DNA of 64,000 nucleotides, taken from positions 14,317,249 through 14,381,248 of the forward strand of contig NC_089858.1 of the NCBI RefSeq assembly GCF_036373705.1, read 5' to 3'. The position numbers and the translations under genes were made by a program. Origin of the DNA: Amia ocellicauda (lineage: Eukaryota > Chordata > Actinopteri > Amiiformes > Amiidae). This document shows positions 5,624 to 49,240 of the stretch, one piece after another (position 1 is the stretch's first letter; the number at the start of each line of letters is the position of its first letter). The notes below the pieces were generated by a model that saw only the letters and a list, made by a program, of their open reading frames with translations, did not search any database and was not told the origin of the DNA.

Positions 5624-6172
<549 letters not shown>

Positions 6173-7812: not shown

Positions 7813-8440
7813 AAACTGAGTGGCTGGCTCTAGGAAGGTCTTAGCCGTGTCGCTCGTATCTCACAGCTTGACACTTTGACCCAGTGCACCCCCCAGACAG
7901 TGGGCTTACACAGGGCAGTGTTGAGCTCCACCAGTCCTGCAGCAACGACACCCGAGCAGCAATGTCCCGCCCCCAGCAGCATCTCCCCGACGACGCTCCA
8001 GTAACCTAGCATCTCAGGGGCCTCCCCTGTGCCCCCTCCGGCCCAGAGTGTCTTTTGAGAGCACCTCCCTCACCTCTCACAGCAGTGCATGCACAATAAC
8101 ATAACAGAGCACAACAGCACCTAAACAAAACAGGAACAGCAGCTCGCTTGCACACACTCAGAAAACACCCCCTCCTCTCTCCCCCCACCCCAGAGAGCCA
8201 GAGCAGCGTGTGGCAGAGGAGCCAGGTTGGTGCCATTCCTGTTGGAGCACGAGGTTGGGACGAGCTGCTGCCATGGCTCCTCAGTGAGCGCAGAAGGGGG
8301 GTGCTGGCCCGTGAGCGCTCATCTCCCTGAGCCATGCCACTGAGCCCCCTACCCAGCAACCCGGGGGGGATCACCGCCGCGCTCAGCTGATCAGGCTGCT
8401 GGAGCTTCTCTCTCTCTCTCACGCCCGCGGAACAGCACAG

Positions 8441-9099
8441 TACCCCAAACCACCCTGGAGGAGGAGGGGAGGGGCGAGGAGGGGCCCCCCCACACGGACT
8501 GTGCGGTGTGCTGGAGCCCCTTCGACAACGCGTTCCGTACACCCAAGCTGCTAACCTGTCGCCATGCCTTCTGCCTGGAGTGTCTGGCACGGCTCAGCCT
8601 GGCCTCGGCTCCAGGGGGGGCGCTGTGCTGCCCGCTGTGCCGCCGCCTCACCCCCCTCCGTGGCACCAGTGTGGCAGAGTTGCCCAGCGACCTTGCCCTG
8701 CTGGACCGGCTGCGGCTTGAGCCTCGGACCGTGGAGCTGCAGGATGGCCGGCTTTGGTACCGCGCCCCACCCCCGCCCCGCTCCTGGCTACGGCCCGCCC
8801 GGCCCACCATTTACACTCTCAGCCTGGACGTGGAACGCCGTCTGCGGCCTGGGCAGAACCTGGTGGGCCCAGCTGGGGAGGACGAGGGGGATCAGGAGGA
8901 GGGGAATGGGGGGGATGCAGAGGAGGGACTGGTTCCAGGCAGCGAGGAGCCCGACTGCTGGCTCAGTCCGCAGCTCCGGGTCTTCACCTATCTCACTGCT
9001 GGCATTTTCATTGTCCTGCTGCTGCTGCTGCTCTCCTTCCTGTGGCTGCGCAGGGACCTGTGGGGGATGACCGAACCCAGGGCCACCGACACACCCTAG
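8441..9099 (+). CDS. rnf183: RING finger protein RNF183 (main coding exon)
   Basis: This exon carries nearly all of a RNF183-type E3 ubiquitin ligase. Starting near 8497 it reads DCAVCWSPFDNAFRTPKLL, then CRHAFCLECLARLSL and CCPLCRR, a C3HC4 RING close to human RNF183. It then keeps the LRLEP...LYTLSLD-type middle, an acidic stretch, and one C-terminal transmembrane helix (FTYLTAGIFIVLLLLLLSFLWL) before the terminal RRDLWGM segment. Mammalian RNF183 is a membrane ligase of the ER/lysosome with roles in stress signalling in kidney cells (family knowledge). The frame is open back to a stop at 8341 with no ATG, so the start lies in an upstream exon; the acceptor at 8440 is my best guess. The stop is TAG at 9097. 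Its neighbour PRPF4 is convergent, as in human 9q32. Confidence 0.88.
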
Positions 9100-25790: not shown

Positions 25791-26758
25791 AGCAGTGATT
25801 TTGGGGTTCGTTGCAATGGAAACATTTTATAGTCCGCAGCTGGGGACTAACTTCAGCTGTTTGTAGAAAAGCCCATCAGCGCAATAACCTCGTATCCCTG
25901 TACATACCAGGTTAACACAGTTGATTATAAAGATCAGCAAAAAAGCAGAATGCTTTGGCATCGATTGCTTCTCAAGTGCAGTCCACCTGAATATTTTCCC
26001 CTCACAAGTGACATTTTTAACAATGCATCTTTACCCACACATAATGTCATCGCATTGTCATTTGACAGATACGAAGCATAGGCATGTGTAAATCATTAAA
26101 AATTAATAAGTTAAGGATAGTGTAGAAATAAGGACAGCCCATGTACGTTATGTCATTAGCCTATATGCATTTTATAATCAGAATAACAATACGTAATATG
26201 ATTATTTTGATCGTTTCTATCCCCGGTGGCCAACCACCAACCCTATAAAAACGGGCAAGTGAGTATAGATTAATAGTATGATTACAGTTAGAGAATATTA
26301 ATTAGCCAAACAGCGTTACGAGAATAGCCTTTATTACAGAACATGAATAGTATAATCATGGAACTTAGATTAGAAGTCTACAAGACCCTTAATTGATGTA
26401 AGCGCAATTTAAATCAAATTCAATGCAAAACAGTTACATATGCCTACTGTAAAATGTATCGCAGTCGTTCGGGCTTAAGCCAGTCTGATGGAAATCTGAA
26501 GAAGCCGGGTGGTCAGGAGTGGTGATCAAGGATAATATTATGTTATACTATCTTATATGTTTTGGCATATACTTTACACACACACACGCAAATACAGTGG
26601 GGGGGGGGGGGGAGTATTTGATCCCCTGCTGATATTGTACGTTTGCCCACTGACAAAGAAATGATCAGTCTTTCAAAAAAGTTATAAATTGATTTGCATG
26701 TTAATGAGGGAAATAAGTATTTGATCCCCTATCAATCAGCAAGATTTCTGGCTCCCAG

Positions 26759-26848
26759 GTGTCTTTTATACAGGTAACGAGCTGAGATTAGGAGCACTCT
26801 CTTAAAGGGACTCTCCTAATCTCAGCTCGTTACCTGTATAAAAGACAC
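26759..26848. repeat. 36-bp perfect hairpin inside the Tc1 element
   Basis: Arms 26759-26794 and 26813-26848 are exact reverse complements, beginning GTGTCTTTTATACAGGTAAC. It lies directly upstream of the transposase start (ATG 26894). Confidence 0.95.
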
Positions 26849-26893
26849 TTGTCCACAGAAGCAATCAATCAATCAGATTCCAAACTCTCCACC

Positions 26894-27903
26894 ATGGCCA
26901 AGACCAAAGAGCTGCCCAAGGATGTCAGGGACAAGATTGTAGACCTACACAATGCTGGAATGGGCTACAAGACCATCACCAAGCAGCTTGGTGAGAAGGT
27001 GACAACAGTTGGTACGATTATTCGCAAATGGAAGAAACCCAAAATAACTGTCAGTCTCCCTCGGTCTGGGGCTCCATGCAAGATCTCACCTCGTGGAGTT
27101 TCAATGATCATGAGAACGGTGAGGAATCAGCCCAGAACTACACGGGAGGATCTTGTTAATGATCTCAAGGCAGCTGGGACCATAGTCGCCAAGAAAACAA
27201 TTGGTAACACACTACGCCGTGAAGGACTGACATCCTGCAGCGCCCGCAAGGTCCCCCTGCTCAAGAAAGCACATGTACAGGCCCGTCTGAAGTTTCCCAA
27301 TGAACATCTGAATGATTCAGAGGAGAACTGGGTGAAAGTGTTGTGGTCAGATGAGACCAAAATCGAGCTCTTTGGCATCAACTCAACTCGCCTTGTTTGG
27401 AGGAGGAGGAATGACCCCAAGAACACCATCCCCACCGTCAAACATGGAGGTGGAAACATGCTTTGGGGGTGTTTTTCTGCTAAGGGGACAGGACAACTGC
27501 ACCGCATCAAAGGGACAATGGACGGGGCCATGTACCGTCAAATCTTGGGTGAGAACCTCCTTCCCTCAGCCAGGGCATTGAAAATGGGTCGTGGATGGTA
27601 TTCCAACATGACAATGACCCAAAACACACAGCCAAGGCAACAAAGGAGTGGCTCAAGAAGAAGCACATTAAGGTCCTGGAGTGGCCTAGCCAGTCTCCAG
27701 ACCTTAATCCCATAGAAAATCTGTGGAGGGAGCTGAAGGTTCGAGTTGCCAAACGTCAGCCTCGAAACCTGAATGACTTGGAGAGGATCTGCAAAGAGGA
27801 GTGGGACAAAATCCCTACTGAGATGTGTGCAAACCTGGTGGCCAACTACAAGAAACGTCTGACCTCTGTGATTGCCAACAAGGGTTTTGCCACCAAGTAC
27901 TAA
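26894..27903 (+). pseudogene. Tc1 transposase, frameshifted
   Basis: The ATG sits in a good context (ACCATGG) and opens [20 protein letters not shown], followed by paired HTH-type DNA-binding domains. The first catalytic Asp is in [12 protein letters not shown]. The frame is lost near 27585-27600 by what looks like a one-base deletion. In the +1-shifted frame the protein resumes [12 protein letters not shown] (second Asp), [11 protein letters not shown] (Glu, 34 residues later: DD34E) and ends GFATKY at 27903. The regions around RRNDPKNTI and GGGNMLWG also look a few residues shorter than copies I remember. Confidence 0.93.
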
Positions 27904-28112
27904 GTCGAAGGGGTCAAATACTTATTTCCCTCATTAACATGCAAATCAATGTATAACTTTTGTGAAATGCGTTTTTCTGGATTTTTTTGTTGTTATTCTG
28001 TCTCTCACTGTTAAAATACACCTACCACTAAAATTATAGACTGATCATTTCTTTGTCAGTGGGCAAACATACAAAATCAGCAGGGGATCAAATACAGTGA
28101 GGGAAAAAAGTA

Positions 28113-31354: not shown

Positions 31355-34300
31355 ATGGAGAGCCGAAAGTTGTCGCTGCTCTTCAGGGCGGTCGGGGTGG
31401 TGCTGGTTGGTCTGACGGTGGGGCTGGTCTTGGATGTCCGTGAGTTGTCGGATGCGCTGCTGGGAAATGGCTACCCAGATCACTGGAGGAAATCCGGGCT
31501 AGCTGGAGCTCCAGCCCGGGCCGCCGCCTGCATCCTTGGCGGGCTGTCGCTGCTGGCCCTGGGCTGGCTGTACCGACTGCTCTTCGCCCCGTTGGAGCTG
31601 CTCCGCAAGCCAGAGGAGGTGGGATACGTGGCCGAGGAGGGTCGAACCCGAGCGCAGGCAGCCAACGAGGTGAGGCGTCGGCGTAAGACCGGAGACCTGC
31701 CCCCCGTGTACCCCAACGGCTGGTACCGGGTGGTGGACTCCCACCTGCTGGACAGAGGGGACGTGAAGAGCGTCACTGTCCTAGGTAGGTACCCCGCCGC
31801 AGTATTTGTGACATAAGATGTTTAGTATAAGAAATGATCTGAGAGCAGCTCAAGCAGCGCTGTGTCTGACTGCTGCAGTTGAACTATGTATTTGAGCCAC
31901 GATGCCCTATGTGTGCACCCCTCCTGGCGGGGCACCTGCAAGGACAGCTAGCACAACTCTAGTTAGTAATGATTGTGTTTGGGCGCAGTGCGCAGACTCG
32001 CATCAGGGGAATCCCCTCCGTCCGGGCATTACTCCCACCTGGAAACCCCAAAACAGAGATGCAGACACTTCAAATCAGTGGCGTAAGCTTGGTTTCAGAA
32101 TTGGGGGGCACGCATCCACTATGCCTATGGAGCCGGGCACACATACTGGGGGGGACGGGACTATTAAACGTTCTCTCAACCTATGCTTCAAATGATCAGT
32201 CTTGTAAGTATTTCATATTTGCGAATGACCTTTATCTGATCAAATCGATTTGTCTTTCTAACTCATCCACACTTCTCTCTGAAGTTCAAATGCTTTATTA
32301 CTGTATATTTATTAAATATGTGTACACATACAGCATTGCATTACAGAGCCAGCCCCTGTCTGCAGCTGCGTGTGTTGAGCTCTTCTGCCTGCCTGTGTGC
32401 TCTGAGGAGCTATAGAGGTCGTGTATCTGAGGGTGTTACTGGTTCTGAAAGGTTTCCTCTCTTCCAGGGTCGATTCCATCCCTACCTCTTCTTCTCTCCC
32501 TTTCTTTCTATGTCTCAGCTATTAATAGACAGTGGTGACTGACGCAAGGAAACTGTTCTTATATAAGCAGTATGTCACAGGAACAGGAATCACGCTGCAT
32601 GATGACCCAGTGCTGTGTCCAGATAATTTTTTCTCAGATTTAACTTACATCTTGTTTTTTTTCCAGATTTAGTAAATAAAGAAGTTTTTTTCACATTTAT
32701 AAATATTCAGTTTTTTTTTAAATAAATACTTAAATAAATGCTAAATCCGTTTTTTAAATAATTTTATAATTTGATTAAATATTTAACTAAATCCTAAATC
32801 ACAAAATAAATATATAGCTTTTAAATAAATATTTAGTCTAAATATAAATGTTAAATATAATTGTGAATGTTAAATATCAATCTAAATGCTAAATAGTTAC
32901 ATATAAATGCTAAATGTGGAGATTGCAAAATAAACATAAAGCTAACATGCAAATCCAGTCCCGCCCCTCTGGTCAGTCAGCCTCTCGGCAGTGGGGGGCG
33001 TGATCCCTTACATGGCGGTGGTGTAGTGTAGTGACAGCGAGTGCAATATATTATTTTTTCTGTTATTATGAAAAAAGAAATCCTGTCCGCACACTGCATT
33101 GAAAAAGAAACAAAGTCAGAAAGAAATGCATAAACACCACAGCAAACGTTTCAGCTTCAGCTCAAAGCTCAGTTTTTCTTTTATGAAATTGCGGAAATTC
33201 AAGTTTTTACTGGGAACCAGTTGTTAAATTGTTGTTCTTTTGGCAACTTGCCAAATTTAAAGAAATGTATTGTTTTGAACTCACTTTATATTTTGTTTTA
33301 TAATCACTAAAATTTTAACGATTCATATTTGATTTTAGAATTGTATTTTATTACAATGTTTACTGTTTTTTTTAATTGGACTGTAAAATACTTATCCAAT
33401 AAAACAGTATTTTTCTGGGAGCCAGTGTCCACTCAGTGGTCAGTGACCACTAGATCCCCTGACCGCATCAGGAAAACACAATCACACAATCTGATGCCCC
33501 GGAGATGCACCGAAACAGAGCCGCCCACTGCTGCCCACATTTAACATTTAGATTTAGATTTTACATTTTATTTAGATTTAACATTTAGATTTAGACTAAC
33601 TATTTATTTAAAAGCTGTGTATTTATTTTGTGACTTAGAGATTTAGCATTTAGTTAAATATTTAATCAAACGATAAATATTTATTTTTTAAAAACTGAGA
33701 TTTAGCATTTATTTAAGTATTTAATTACAAAAACAAAATATAAATGTGGAAAAAACTGCTTAAGTATTTACTAAATCTGGAACAAAACACAAGATATAAG
33801 TTAAATCTGTGAAAAATGACATTCGGAAAAAAGTGTTTGCTGTTTTACATTTGGTGCCCCATATAGACTGGCTTTTTTTTGCATGTGTTATAGAGTTGCA
33901 ATTGTTATGCAGGGAGCCAGGATCAGAGCCAAACAAAAGCACGTGGCCCATTGCCACAGAGCCGAGGGGCAGGTAGGGCAGGTTTGGGGAATCTGTCAGT
34001 TCAGCAGAGAGAGCCTGCCTCAGAAAAGCGTCTGACATATCAATAATGCAACACACTTTACATGAAATATAAACCATCAATAGAACTAGGGGGGCAGCTG
34101 GAAGGCGGAGAGTGGGTGGGTGGTGCTGTACTTTTCATTACTGTTTGATTCTATCAGACTGTTACTCATTCTTTAATGTAGTCGAGCTGGATTGGGAACC
34201 AGCAGGACCAGTGCTGGTCAACCGGGGAGCGTCAGAGAGGCAGGACTATAGGCCAAGGGGATTCAAGAGCTGTCTAACGGCTTGTATTGGTTATTGTGTT

Positions 34301-44933: not shown

Positions 44934-45466
44934 CAGTTAGGTCCATAAATATTTTGACAGTTACACAATTGTCATCATTTTGGCTCTGTACGTCACCACA
45001 ATGGATCTGAAAGGTAACAACCAATATGTACTTTAAGTGTAGACATCTTTAATTTGAGGGTAGTTACATTAAGAACAAGCAGGAACTAAAGACAGCTGCA
45101 GTGCAGTCCTGGCAGAGCATCACCAGGAAAGAAACCCAGCATCTGGTGATGTCTATGGGTTCCAGACTTCAGGCAGTCATTGACTGCAAAGGATTTGCAG
45201 CCAAGTATTGAAACTGACAGTTGAATGAATGATTATGTTAGTTTGTCCAATTACTTTTGAGCCTCTAAAATTGGGGGGACCACATATAAAAATGGGTGTA
45301 ATTCCTACACCGTTCACCCAATCTGGATGTAACTACCCTCAAATTAAAGATGAAAGTCTACACTTAAAGGACGTCTTGATTGTTTCCTTTCAAATCTATT
45401 GTGGTGGCGTACAGAGCCAAAATTATGACAATAGTGTCGGTGTCCAAATATTTATGGACCTAACTG
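44934..45466 (+). mobile_element. Internally deleted Tc1 element
   Basis: The ends CAGTTAGGTCCATAAATATT and (inverted) AATATTTATGGACCTAACTG are flanked by TA at 44932-44933 and 45467-45468. Inverted similarity extends about 135 bases inward on each side. Only about 250 bases remain between the arms, holding a transposase remnant. It is non-autonomous. Confidence 0.93.
45104..45211 (+). pseudogene. Remnant of Tc1 transposase C-terminus
   Basis: An open stretch of 35 codons plus stop reading QSWQSITRKETQHLVMSMGS... and ending CKGFAAKY, typical of the C-terminus of fish Tc1 transposases. The rest of the gene is missing. Confidence 0.85.
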
Positions 45467-46442: not shown

Positions 46443-46451
46443 ACGCATATA

Positions 46452-47672
46452 CACTCACCTAAAGGATTATTAGGAACACCATACTAATACTGTGTTTGAC
46501 CCCCTTTTGCCTTCAGAACTGCCTTAATTCTGCGTGGCATTGATTCAACAAGGTGCTGAAAGCATTCTTTAGAAATGTTGGCCCATATTGATAGGATAGC
46601 ATCTTGCAGTTGATGGAGATTTGTGGGATGCACATCCAGGGCACGAAGCTCCCGTTCCACCACATCCCAAAGATGCTCTATTGGGTTGAGATCTGGTGAC
46701 TGTGGGGGCCAGTTTAGTACAGTGAACTCATTGTCATGTTCAAGAAACCAATTTGAAATGATTCGACCTTTGTGACATGGTGCATTATCCTGCTGGAAGT
46801 AGCCATCAGAGGATGGGTACATGGTGGTCATAAAGGGATGGACATGGTCAGAAACAATGCTCAGGTAGGCCGTGGCATTTAAACGATGCCCAATTGGCAC
46901 TAAGGGGCCTAAAGTGTGCCAAGAAAACATCCCCCACACCATTACACCACCACCACCAGCCTGCACAGTGGTAACAAGGCATGATGGATCCATGTTCTCA
47001 TTCTGTTTACGCCAAATTCTGACTTTACCATCTGAATGTCTCAAGAGAAATCGAGACTCATCAGCCCAGGCAACATTTTTCCAGTCTTCAACTGTCCAAT
47101 TTTGGTGAGCTTGTGCAAATTGTAGCCTCTTTTTCCTATTTGTAGTGGAGATGAGTGGTACCCGGTGGGGTCTTCTGCTGTTGTAGCCCATCCGCCTCAA
47201 GGTTGTACGTGTTGTGGCTTCACAAATGCTTTGCTGCATTCCTCGGTTGTAACGAGTGGTTATTTCAGTCAAAGTTGCTCTTCTATCAGCTTGAATCAGT
47301 CGGCCCATTCTCCTCTGACCTCTAGCATCAACAAGGCATTTTCGCCCACAGGACTGCCGCATACTGGATGTTTTTCCCTTTTCACACCATTCTTTGTAAA
47401 CCCTAGAAATGGTTGTGCGTGAAAATCCCAGTAACTGAGCAGATTGTGAAATACTCAGACCGGCCCGTCTGGCACCAACAACCATGCCACGCTCAAAATT
47501 GCTTAAATCACCTTTCTTTCCCATTCAGACATTCAGTTTGGAGTTCAGGAGATTGTCTTGACCAGGACCACACCCCTAAATGCATTGAAGCAACTGCCAT
47601 GTGATTGGTTGGTTAGATAATTGCATTAATGAGAAATTGAACAGGTGTTCCTAATAATCCTTTAGGTGAGTG
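46452..47672 (-). mobile_element. Intact Tc1/mariner DD36E (Incomer-like) transposon
   Basis: The 1221-bp element has perfect 29-bp terminal inverted repeats (46452-46480 and 47644-47672; outer end CACTCACCTAAAGGATTATT) and TA target duplications (46450-46451 and 47673-47674). Between them lies one uninterrupted 346-codon transposase gene on the minus strand, its stop three bases from the left repeat. Nothing visible would prevent it from being autonomous. Near-perfect structure suggests a young insertion. The catalytic spacing fits the DD36E/Incomer family described in animals. Confidence 0.95.
46484..47524 (-). CDS. DD36E transposase, complete 346 aa
   Basis: The protein starts MGKKGDLSNFERGMVVGARR, with an HTH domain (SISQSAQLLGFSRTTISRV at about residues 24-42) and a second one further on (TLTEITTRY onwards). 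The catalytic triad is D in WADESRF, D in FQQDNAPCH and E in LNPIEHLWD, with 36 residues between the second Asp and the Glu. It ends KAKGGQTQY. The enzyme would bind the 29-bp ends and move the element by cut and paste into TA sites. No stop or frameshift is present. Codon use looks unremarkable. Confidence 0.95.
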   Translation of the reverse strand: MGKKGDLSNFERGMVVGARRAGLSISQSAQLLGFSRTTISRVYKEWCEKGKTSSMRQSCGRKCLVDARGQRRMGRLIQADRRATLTEITTRYNRGMQQSICEATTRTTLRRMGYNSRRPHRVPLISTTNRKKRLQFAQAHQNWTVEDWKNVAWADESRFLLRHSDGKVRIWRKQNENMDPSCLVTTVQAGGGGVMVWGMFSWHTLGPLVPIGHRLNATAYLSIVSDHVHPFMTTMYPSSDGYFQQDNAPCHKGRIISNWFLEHDNEFTVLNWPPQSPDLNPIEHLWDVVERELRALDVHPTNLHQLQDAILSIWANISKECFQHLVESMPRRIKAVLKAKGGQTQY

Positions 47673-48004
47673 TATATGCTTGTGTGTATGCATGTATATG
47701 TATAGATGTGTGTTTGTATAGATTATTGAACAATATCCTTATTTTTTCATTTCAATATTAAAATATGAACGTGACATCTAAGAGTTACTTGATTAGAAAA
47801 CTAATGAAAATGTAATAATTTAACGACAGAATAAAACCCGAGTTAGCAATATATTGTGCAATGCATTCAGGCAACAGAACCAAGATGTACACATGACGCG
47901 TGCTTCACAGTGGAGGCGGTGCGCGCCCTGGACTCGCTCTGAACGGGAGACAGAGAGGCGTCACAATGTGAACGAACTCCCCAGCGACGCGGGCACATTT
48001 TAAA

Positions 48005-48260: not shown

Positions 48261-48415
48261 GGTGACCTTTAATAAGTATATTTCTCGATTATCATGCGTA
48301 TAAGTAAATGGACATTCATTAAAAAATAGTGGGTTATATTACACTATTCAATATTAAAATGAAGTTAGATCATTTTTAATCTACTACATATTTGAAAGGT
48401 AGCTGGTGTTAAAGC

Positions 48416-49240
48416 ATGCAGCCGGACGCGGGGGCAGAGGGACGCGCTGTGCACGAGCCGGGGGCGCTGCCGGGGGGGTCGCGGCGCGCGGGGGCTGAGC
48501 CAGCTCGCGCCGAACTGAGCGCGGAGAGGCGCGCGCCGCCCTGTGTGGCAAACTGCGCAGCTGCGACGGAGGCCCTGCTGTCAGGGCAGTGTGACACAAC
48601 CAGGGGAGCTGCTCTACCAAGAGAGGGGGCTGCACAGCAGGGGCGGGAGCTGCTCAGCGAGGAGGAACCCCTTCTGACCCCATCTGACCCACTGACCTCC
48701 AGCCACTTGCCTGCCCCCGAGGCCGCAGATGAATGCCCGATCTGCACTGAGGTGTACGACGCCCATGGTGAGCGCAGCAGGGCGCTGCTGAACTGCGACC
48801 ACACAGTCTGCCAGTGCTGCCTGGCGGCGCTGCAGGAGCGGGCAGCCGACCCCAGCCGCGTGAGCTGCCCTCTGTGCCGCCAGAAGACGCCGCTGCCACA
48901 GTGGGAGATCCGGCGGATGCAGGAGGACACGGTGTGCCAGCTGGGCTCCACTGCCACCTGCCCTCACCAACCCACTGCCCCGCCCTCTCCCCAGGCAGCA
49001 GGGGGATTGTTCGCTGCTTTGGAGCGGAGGTTAGAGTTGCGTTTGGGGACGGTGCTGGTGTGCGGCTGCTTCCGGTACCCCCCCAGGCTGTTGCGCTGGC
49101 TGGGGGGGCTGCGTCTGCACTGTCGCTGCTGCTACCTGACAGTTCTGCTGTTTCTGTACCTGGCTGAGCTCAGCTGCCTGCTGCTGGTGTTCCTGCCTGT
49201 GCTGGTGCTGGTGCTACTCTTCACACTGGCCAGCAGGTAG
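48416..49240 (+). CDS. Membrane-anchored RING finger protein, 274 aa
   Basis: A single-exon frame with a stop one codon before the ATG, so the start is clear. The first 95 residues are low-complexity, rich in Ala, Arg and Glu. The C3HC4 RING is C107, C110, C127, H129, C132, C135, C151, C154 (DECPICTEVYDAHGE, LLNCDHTVCQCC, VSCPLCRQKTPLP). A pair of hydrophobic segments (about residues 238-272, YLTVLLFLYLAEL... and ...FLPVLVLVLLFTL) probably forms a membrane hairpin at the C-terminus. The layout resembles RNF152, RNF182 and RNF186, membrane E3 ligases, but I cannot match it to one orthologue. The GC-rich coding sequence contrasts with its surroundings. Its substrate is unknown. Confidence 0.8.
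   Translation: MQPDAGAEGRAVHEPGALPGGSRRAGAEPARAELSAERRAPPCVANCAAATEALLSGQCDTTRGAALPREGAAQQGRELLSEEEPLLTPSDPLTSSHLPAPEAADECPICTEVYDAHGERSRALLNCDHTVCQCCLAALQERAADPSRVSCPLCRQKTPLPQWEIRRMQEDTVCQLGSTATCPHQPTAPPSPQAAGGLFAALERRLELRLGTVLVCGCFRYPPRLLRWLGGLRLHCRCCYLTVLLFLYLAELSCLLLVFLPVLVLVLLFTLASR

Follow-up and report, generated by a model that had tools for sequence, protein, structure and literature searches.

A structurally complete Incomer-like (DD36E) Tc1/mariner transposon and its near-identical relatives in the genome of Amia ocellicauda

INTRODUCTION

Few Tc1/mariner elements are known to be naturally active (PMC6875036). The Incomer (DD36E/IC) family of this superfamily, described by Sang et al. 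2019 (PMC6875036), consists of elements of about 1.2 kb that encode a transposase of about 346 aa with a DD36E signature, end in terminal inverted repeats (TIRs) of 22-32 bp, and are flanked by TA. Two helix-turn-helix domains in the DNA-binding region, a GRPR-like motif that separates them, and a nuclear localization signal are also among the features of the family. The same source reports the family from 132 ray-finned fish species, 33 of which carry intact copies, and gives copy numbers that reach the thousands in some hosts (e.g., 5418 in Esox lucius). There, activity is suggested on the grounds that intact copies exist. We found no printed test of Incomer activity in the open-licence literature, PMC6875036 included. 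A preference for inserting into the target ATATATAT has been reported for other members of the superfamily, namely ZB, Sleeping Beauty (SB), and Bari (PMC7913693).

Here, we analyze a transposon found in a 64,000-nucleotide stretch of the Amia ocellicauda genome (contig NC_089858.1, positions 14,317,249 to 14,381,248 of the forward strand; hereafter, the window). A preliminary description had singled it out as a structurally perfect copy that may be recent or still active. We compare this copy with its relatives in the same genome and with the described systems.

RESULTS

The window element has the anatomy of Incomer

The features of the element are collected in Table 1. Its TIRs match perfectly over exactly 29 bp, the 30th bases being mismatched, and TA stands on both sides, so that this part of the preliminary description can be confirmed with exact coordinates. 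The inverted match is reported as 36 bp rather than 29 bp because the insertion target is itself palindromic (GCATATA/TATATGC) and is counted in the longer figure. When the whole window was searched for the TIR with up to 3 mismatches, only two sites were returned, both of them ends of the element, with 0 expected by chance.

The unbroken transposase of 346 codons, with D, D, and E in place and the last two separated by 36 residues, is likewise upheld by the reading frame, which runs without interruption on the minus strand, and by the motif positions, from which D155, D246, and E283 were placed. Pfam assigns two helix-turn-helix domains to the DNA-binding region (HTH_23 at residues 11-47 and HTH_Tnp_Tc3_2 at 71-142) and also finds a DDE_3 domain. 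Read by itself, the protein shows a GRK stretch around residue 60, which is at most a candidate for the GRPR-like motif. Among solved structures, a sequence search at E ≤ 0.001 matched one alone, 5cr4, the catalytic domain of Sleeping Beauty (E = 1.7e-43); a single-sequence AlphaFold model of the transposase, with a mean pLDDT of 37.4, was too poor for use.

The length, open reading frame, TIRs, TA duplication, two helix-turn-helix domains, and DD36E spacing of the window element fit the published description. We regard the element as very probably young, complete in structure, and a member of the Incomer (DD36E) family of cut-and-paste transposons. Membership of the DD34E/Tc1 group, to which Sleeping Beauty belongs, was rejected on the spacing of 36, not 34, residues. 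Two further candidates were considered and set aside, in both cases with a single-protein query that detects close relatives only: for a viral vector, the transposase had no match in viral contigs, and for prokaryote relatives, none of the 8 pattern-matching stretches in prokaryote contigs proved to be related by tblastn. A literature search with the letters of the TIR found no paper.

Table 1. Positions of the transposon, its parts, and two other elements in the window
Feature	Position	Strand	Remarks
Incomer-like (DD36E) Tc1/mariner transposon	46452..47672	-	1221 bp; transposase on minus strand
Left TA target-site duplication	46450..46451	.	Sequence
Terminal inverted repeat, 29 bp, 3' end of transposase gene	46452..46480	+	
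Transposase, 346 aa, no internal stop	46484..47524	-	D155, D246, E283; S154A and R167K relative to the majority
Terminal inverted repeat, 29 bp, 5' side of transposase gene	47644..47672	-	
Right TA target-site duplication	47673..47674	.	Joined flanks form a palindrome around TA
Sleeping-Beauty-like Tc1 relic, frameshifted	26614-28095		SB-type helix-turn-helix
Inverted-repeat element ending on TA, 533 bp	44934-45466		Arms about 86% alike

Near-identical copies are spread through the genome

The preliminary description had proposed a comparison with other copies in the same genome, in which near-identical copies would speak for recent activity. Querying the genome (988 Mb, 385 contigs) with the complete element yielded 963 first-look candidates. 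Of these, 40, the window copy included, were scored and examined with 1-kb flanks. All 40 are at least 99% identical; the match covers positions 1-1221 in 39 of them and 2-1221 in the other, and by hand count they are spread over 16 contigs. On average, they depart from the majority consensus by 3.1 changes per 1221 bp (0.26%) and from each other, in pairwise comparison, by 0.48%, and the transposase frame is intact in 34, counting the window copy.

Since this first sample was chosen by whole-element similarity, a second was taken that was selected by the first 349 bp of the element only. The 40 matches listed, minus the window copy, leave 39 copies, comprising 32 new ones and 7 common to the first sample. 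Indels are absent from 26 of them; in the part not covered by the query, which is 872 bp long, these lie on average 0.58% from the consensus (95% bootstrap interval 0.49-0.68%). Indels, truncation, or divergence affect the remaining 13, which were not scored for frame, and the frame was shown to be intact in 17 of the 39. Together, the damage in 13 and the intact frame in 17 of these copies indicate that decay is under way. Both samples were selected by similarity and are biased toward young copies; the second is less biased, while still conditioned on a well-preserved end.

The preliminary description implied a contrast between one perfect copy and broken ones, and within the family itself this contrast fails: each of the two samples has many intact copies, and completeness alone therefore does not mark out the window copy. 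From the overlap between samples in the range C1 to C7:8.69 Mb (22 and 39 copies, 7 in common), we estimate by hand about 120 copies in that range and about 340 genome-wide, figures that assume independent samples with all ties listed and serve as a rough guide. A query with a 121-bp inner stretch of the element gave no candidates; words that occur very often in the genome are skipped in such a search, so that the outcome may stem from abundance and carries no weight on its own.

Two pairs of copies are identical. L010 (C20) and L011 (C6) agree across all 1221 bp, their 1-kb flanks have no BLAST match to each other (E ≤ 1e-5), and two further copies, L016 and L019, each differ from both by one change. 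The second pair, L017 and L018, also has left flanks that are 100% identical over 1000 bp; because this flank is common to both, we attribute the pair to a duplication and not to two insertions. L018 (C20:27197250) and L017 (C20:27205330) lie 8.08 kb apart and their right flanks have no BLAST match, the breakpoint of the duplication apparently being at or near the right end of the element. Elsewhere, a lone 38-bp fragment (C1:29673400-29673437) that corresponds to query positions 1184-1221, the terminal 38 bp of the element with one TIR, was seen 12 bases before the full copy L025.

Insertions favor a target, and their flanks seldom match

In the first sample, TA is present on both sides of all 40 copies, L028 being read one base to the left of its BLAST start. 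The target ATATATAT is centered on 22 of these 40 insertions (a count that includes the window copy and both L017/L018 duplicates), compared with 78 of 5197 background TA sites, which were taken from the sequence flanking these loci. Read by eye, the second sample has TA on the left of 37 of 39 copies and on the right of 33 of the 34 that are readable. In L050, a full copy, CA and TG take the place of the two TAs, and the left flank of L052 carries CA.

When the 80 flanks of the first sample were compared, only 13 pairs gave matches longer than 150 bp at E ≤ 1e-20, and no two of the 40 copies had matching flanks on both sides. We also looked for empty sites. For the window copy and L036, none was found: the joined flanks matched their own halves, repeats, and microsatellites, and no match spanned the site with both flanks. 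The few matches of the window-copy joined flanks that crossed a microsatellite covered about 100 bases at 69-85%. Likewise, BLAST of the 40 joined flank pairs within the set of retrieved loci gave 455 hits, none of which reached 50 bases past the junction in both directions at another locus.

These comparisons bear on how the near-identity of the copies arose. In principle, it could be due not to recent transposition but to gene conversion or an assembly artefact, and L017/L018, with their shared left flank, indicate that one identical pair came from duplication. For the family as a whole, however, such an origin is highly improbable, given 40 copies on 16 contigs that are bounded by TA without exception, and flanks that seldom match and never do so on both sides. 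Because many near-identical copies sit at unrelated loci, a recent spread of the family in many such copies is well supported by the sequences, which bears out the earlier suggestion as far as recency is concerned.

Signs of recent and possibly continuing activity

The identity of L010 and L011 despite unrelated flanks, with L016 and L019 one change away, strengthens the signal of a recent burst, and the youngest insertions may, judging from this pair, be younger still. Continuing activity of the family is plausible from its sequences, and for the stronger statement that a DD36E Incomer element is transposing in this genome now, we hold the case for and against to be evenly balanced.

The main competing explanation is a burst that was recent and is finished, its copies now being fixed or silenced and fresh only in appearance. 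Most copies, even in samples of young ones, carry private mutations, some of them stops or indels, as copies left behind by a completed burst would; a pair that is identical at unrelated loci, and two copies a single change from it, fit less well. We consider a finished burst quite possible, if somewhat short of probable.

To characterize the private changes, we classified those of the 59 gap-free copies into 103 missense, 25 synonymous, and 13 stop changes (73, 18, and 9%), where 70, 25, and 4.5%, respectively, are expected without selection when transitions are weighted twice. Among these copies, the private changes give no sign of purifying selection, and stops are, if anything, in excess. 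Damaging changes are thus not scarce, and we conclude that single copies drift after insertion, as expected of a transposon.

The window copy departs from the family consensus

The window copy is complete in structure, yet atypical of its family: 5 of its bases, at positions 81, 574, 594, 614, and 789, deviate from the consensus. Three of the variants are shared with other gap-free copies (one at 81, two at 574, and ten at 594), whereas those at 614 and 789 occur in no other of the 59. The changes at 81, 594, and 789 are silent; 574 corresponds to R167K and 614 to S154A, which is absent from all 58 other gap-free copies.

Because the private S154A adjoins the catalytic D155, the window transposase may or may not work. 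Its ends, for their part, look usable by the transposase of other copies. The copy could thus be a non-autonomous passenger, with good ends and a transposase weakened by this change. The position of S154A, its occurrence in a single one of the 59 gap-free copies, and the serine that SB100X carries at the equivalent position in the alignment are in keeping with such a role. Yet serine to alanine is a mild substitution, and the residue just before this catalytic aspartate varies among Tc1/mariner families. Weighing both sides, we treat the passenger role as a tentative reading, possible and rather doubtful.

Other elements in the window

Two other broken Tc1 copies had been mentioned for the window. 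One of them is borne out by the frameshifted relic at 26614-28095, which has DD34E spacing by hand count on an alignment and whose family gives 3450 first-look candidates in the genome, 40 of which were scored. For the other, we can only guess that the 533-bp element at 44934-45466 was meant, in which tblastn with two transposase queries found no transposase.

The relic matches 3 of 6 published Group 1 Tc1 primers exactly and the others with 1, 1, and 2 bases off; Group 1 elements are reported to have passed between fishes and lampreys (PMC3516227). The window also contains a RING-finger frame (Pfam) at 48413-49240, the first ATG of which lies 743 bases past the right end of the transposon, two further RING frames (5624-6172 and 8344-9099), and an AT-rich stretch of 1.2 kb (32628-33816) with long inverted arms that are about 81% alike over 285 bp.

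DISCUSSION

By analogy with the superfamily, the transposase would bind the 29-bp TIRs through its two helix-turn-helix domains, and its DDE catalytic domain would cut the element out. The excised element would then insert at a TA, which is duplicated, preferably inside ATATATAT, a preference that we observed directly in the distribution of insertions. By such a route, the family may still move.

Ongoing transposition could be tested well in a genome such as this one, where many copies lie within 1% of one another and two are identical at unrelated loci. If Incomer does move in it now, the element would be both native and active, in a family for which we found no activity test in print. For general biology, this is an ordinary recent transposon burst, and the element itself is a textbook example of an already published family, ordinary for its kind.

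The element resembles Incomer in its length of 1221 bp, its 346-aa transposase, the DD36E signature, the 29-bp TIRs, and the TA duplication. No difference emerged among the features compared, and the assignment is made by anatomy. Sleeping Beauty belongs to the same superfamily, and SB100X (5cr4) aligns with the catalytic part of the window transposase. Unlike in Sleeping Beauty and the DD34E Tc1 elements, however, the last D and E of the window transposase are separated by 36, not 34, residues. The ends differ as well: those of the SB type are longer and carry inner repeats, whereas the TIRs of the window element are short and simple. The target preference, in turn, is shared, the window family and Sleeping Beauty both favoring ATATATAT (PMC7913693). 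Finally, the window family is like ZB of zebrafish, a native Tc1 element of fish that is very young, targets ATATATAT, and has copies more than 99% identical; ZB differs in being built like SB, and it was shown to be active in cells (PMC7913693).
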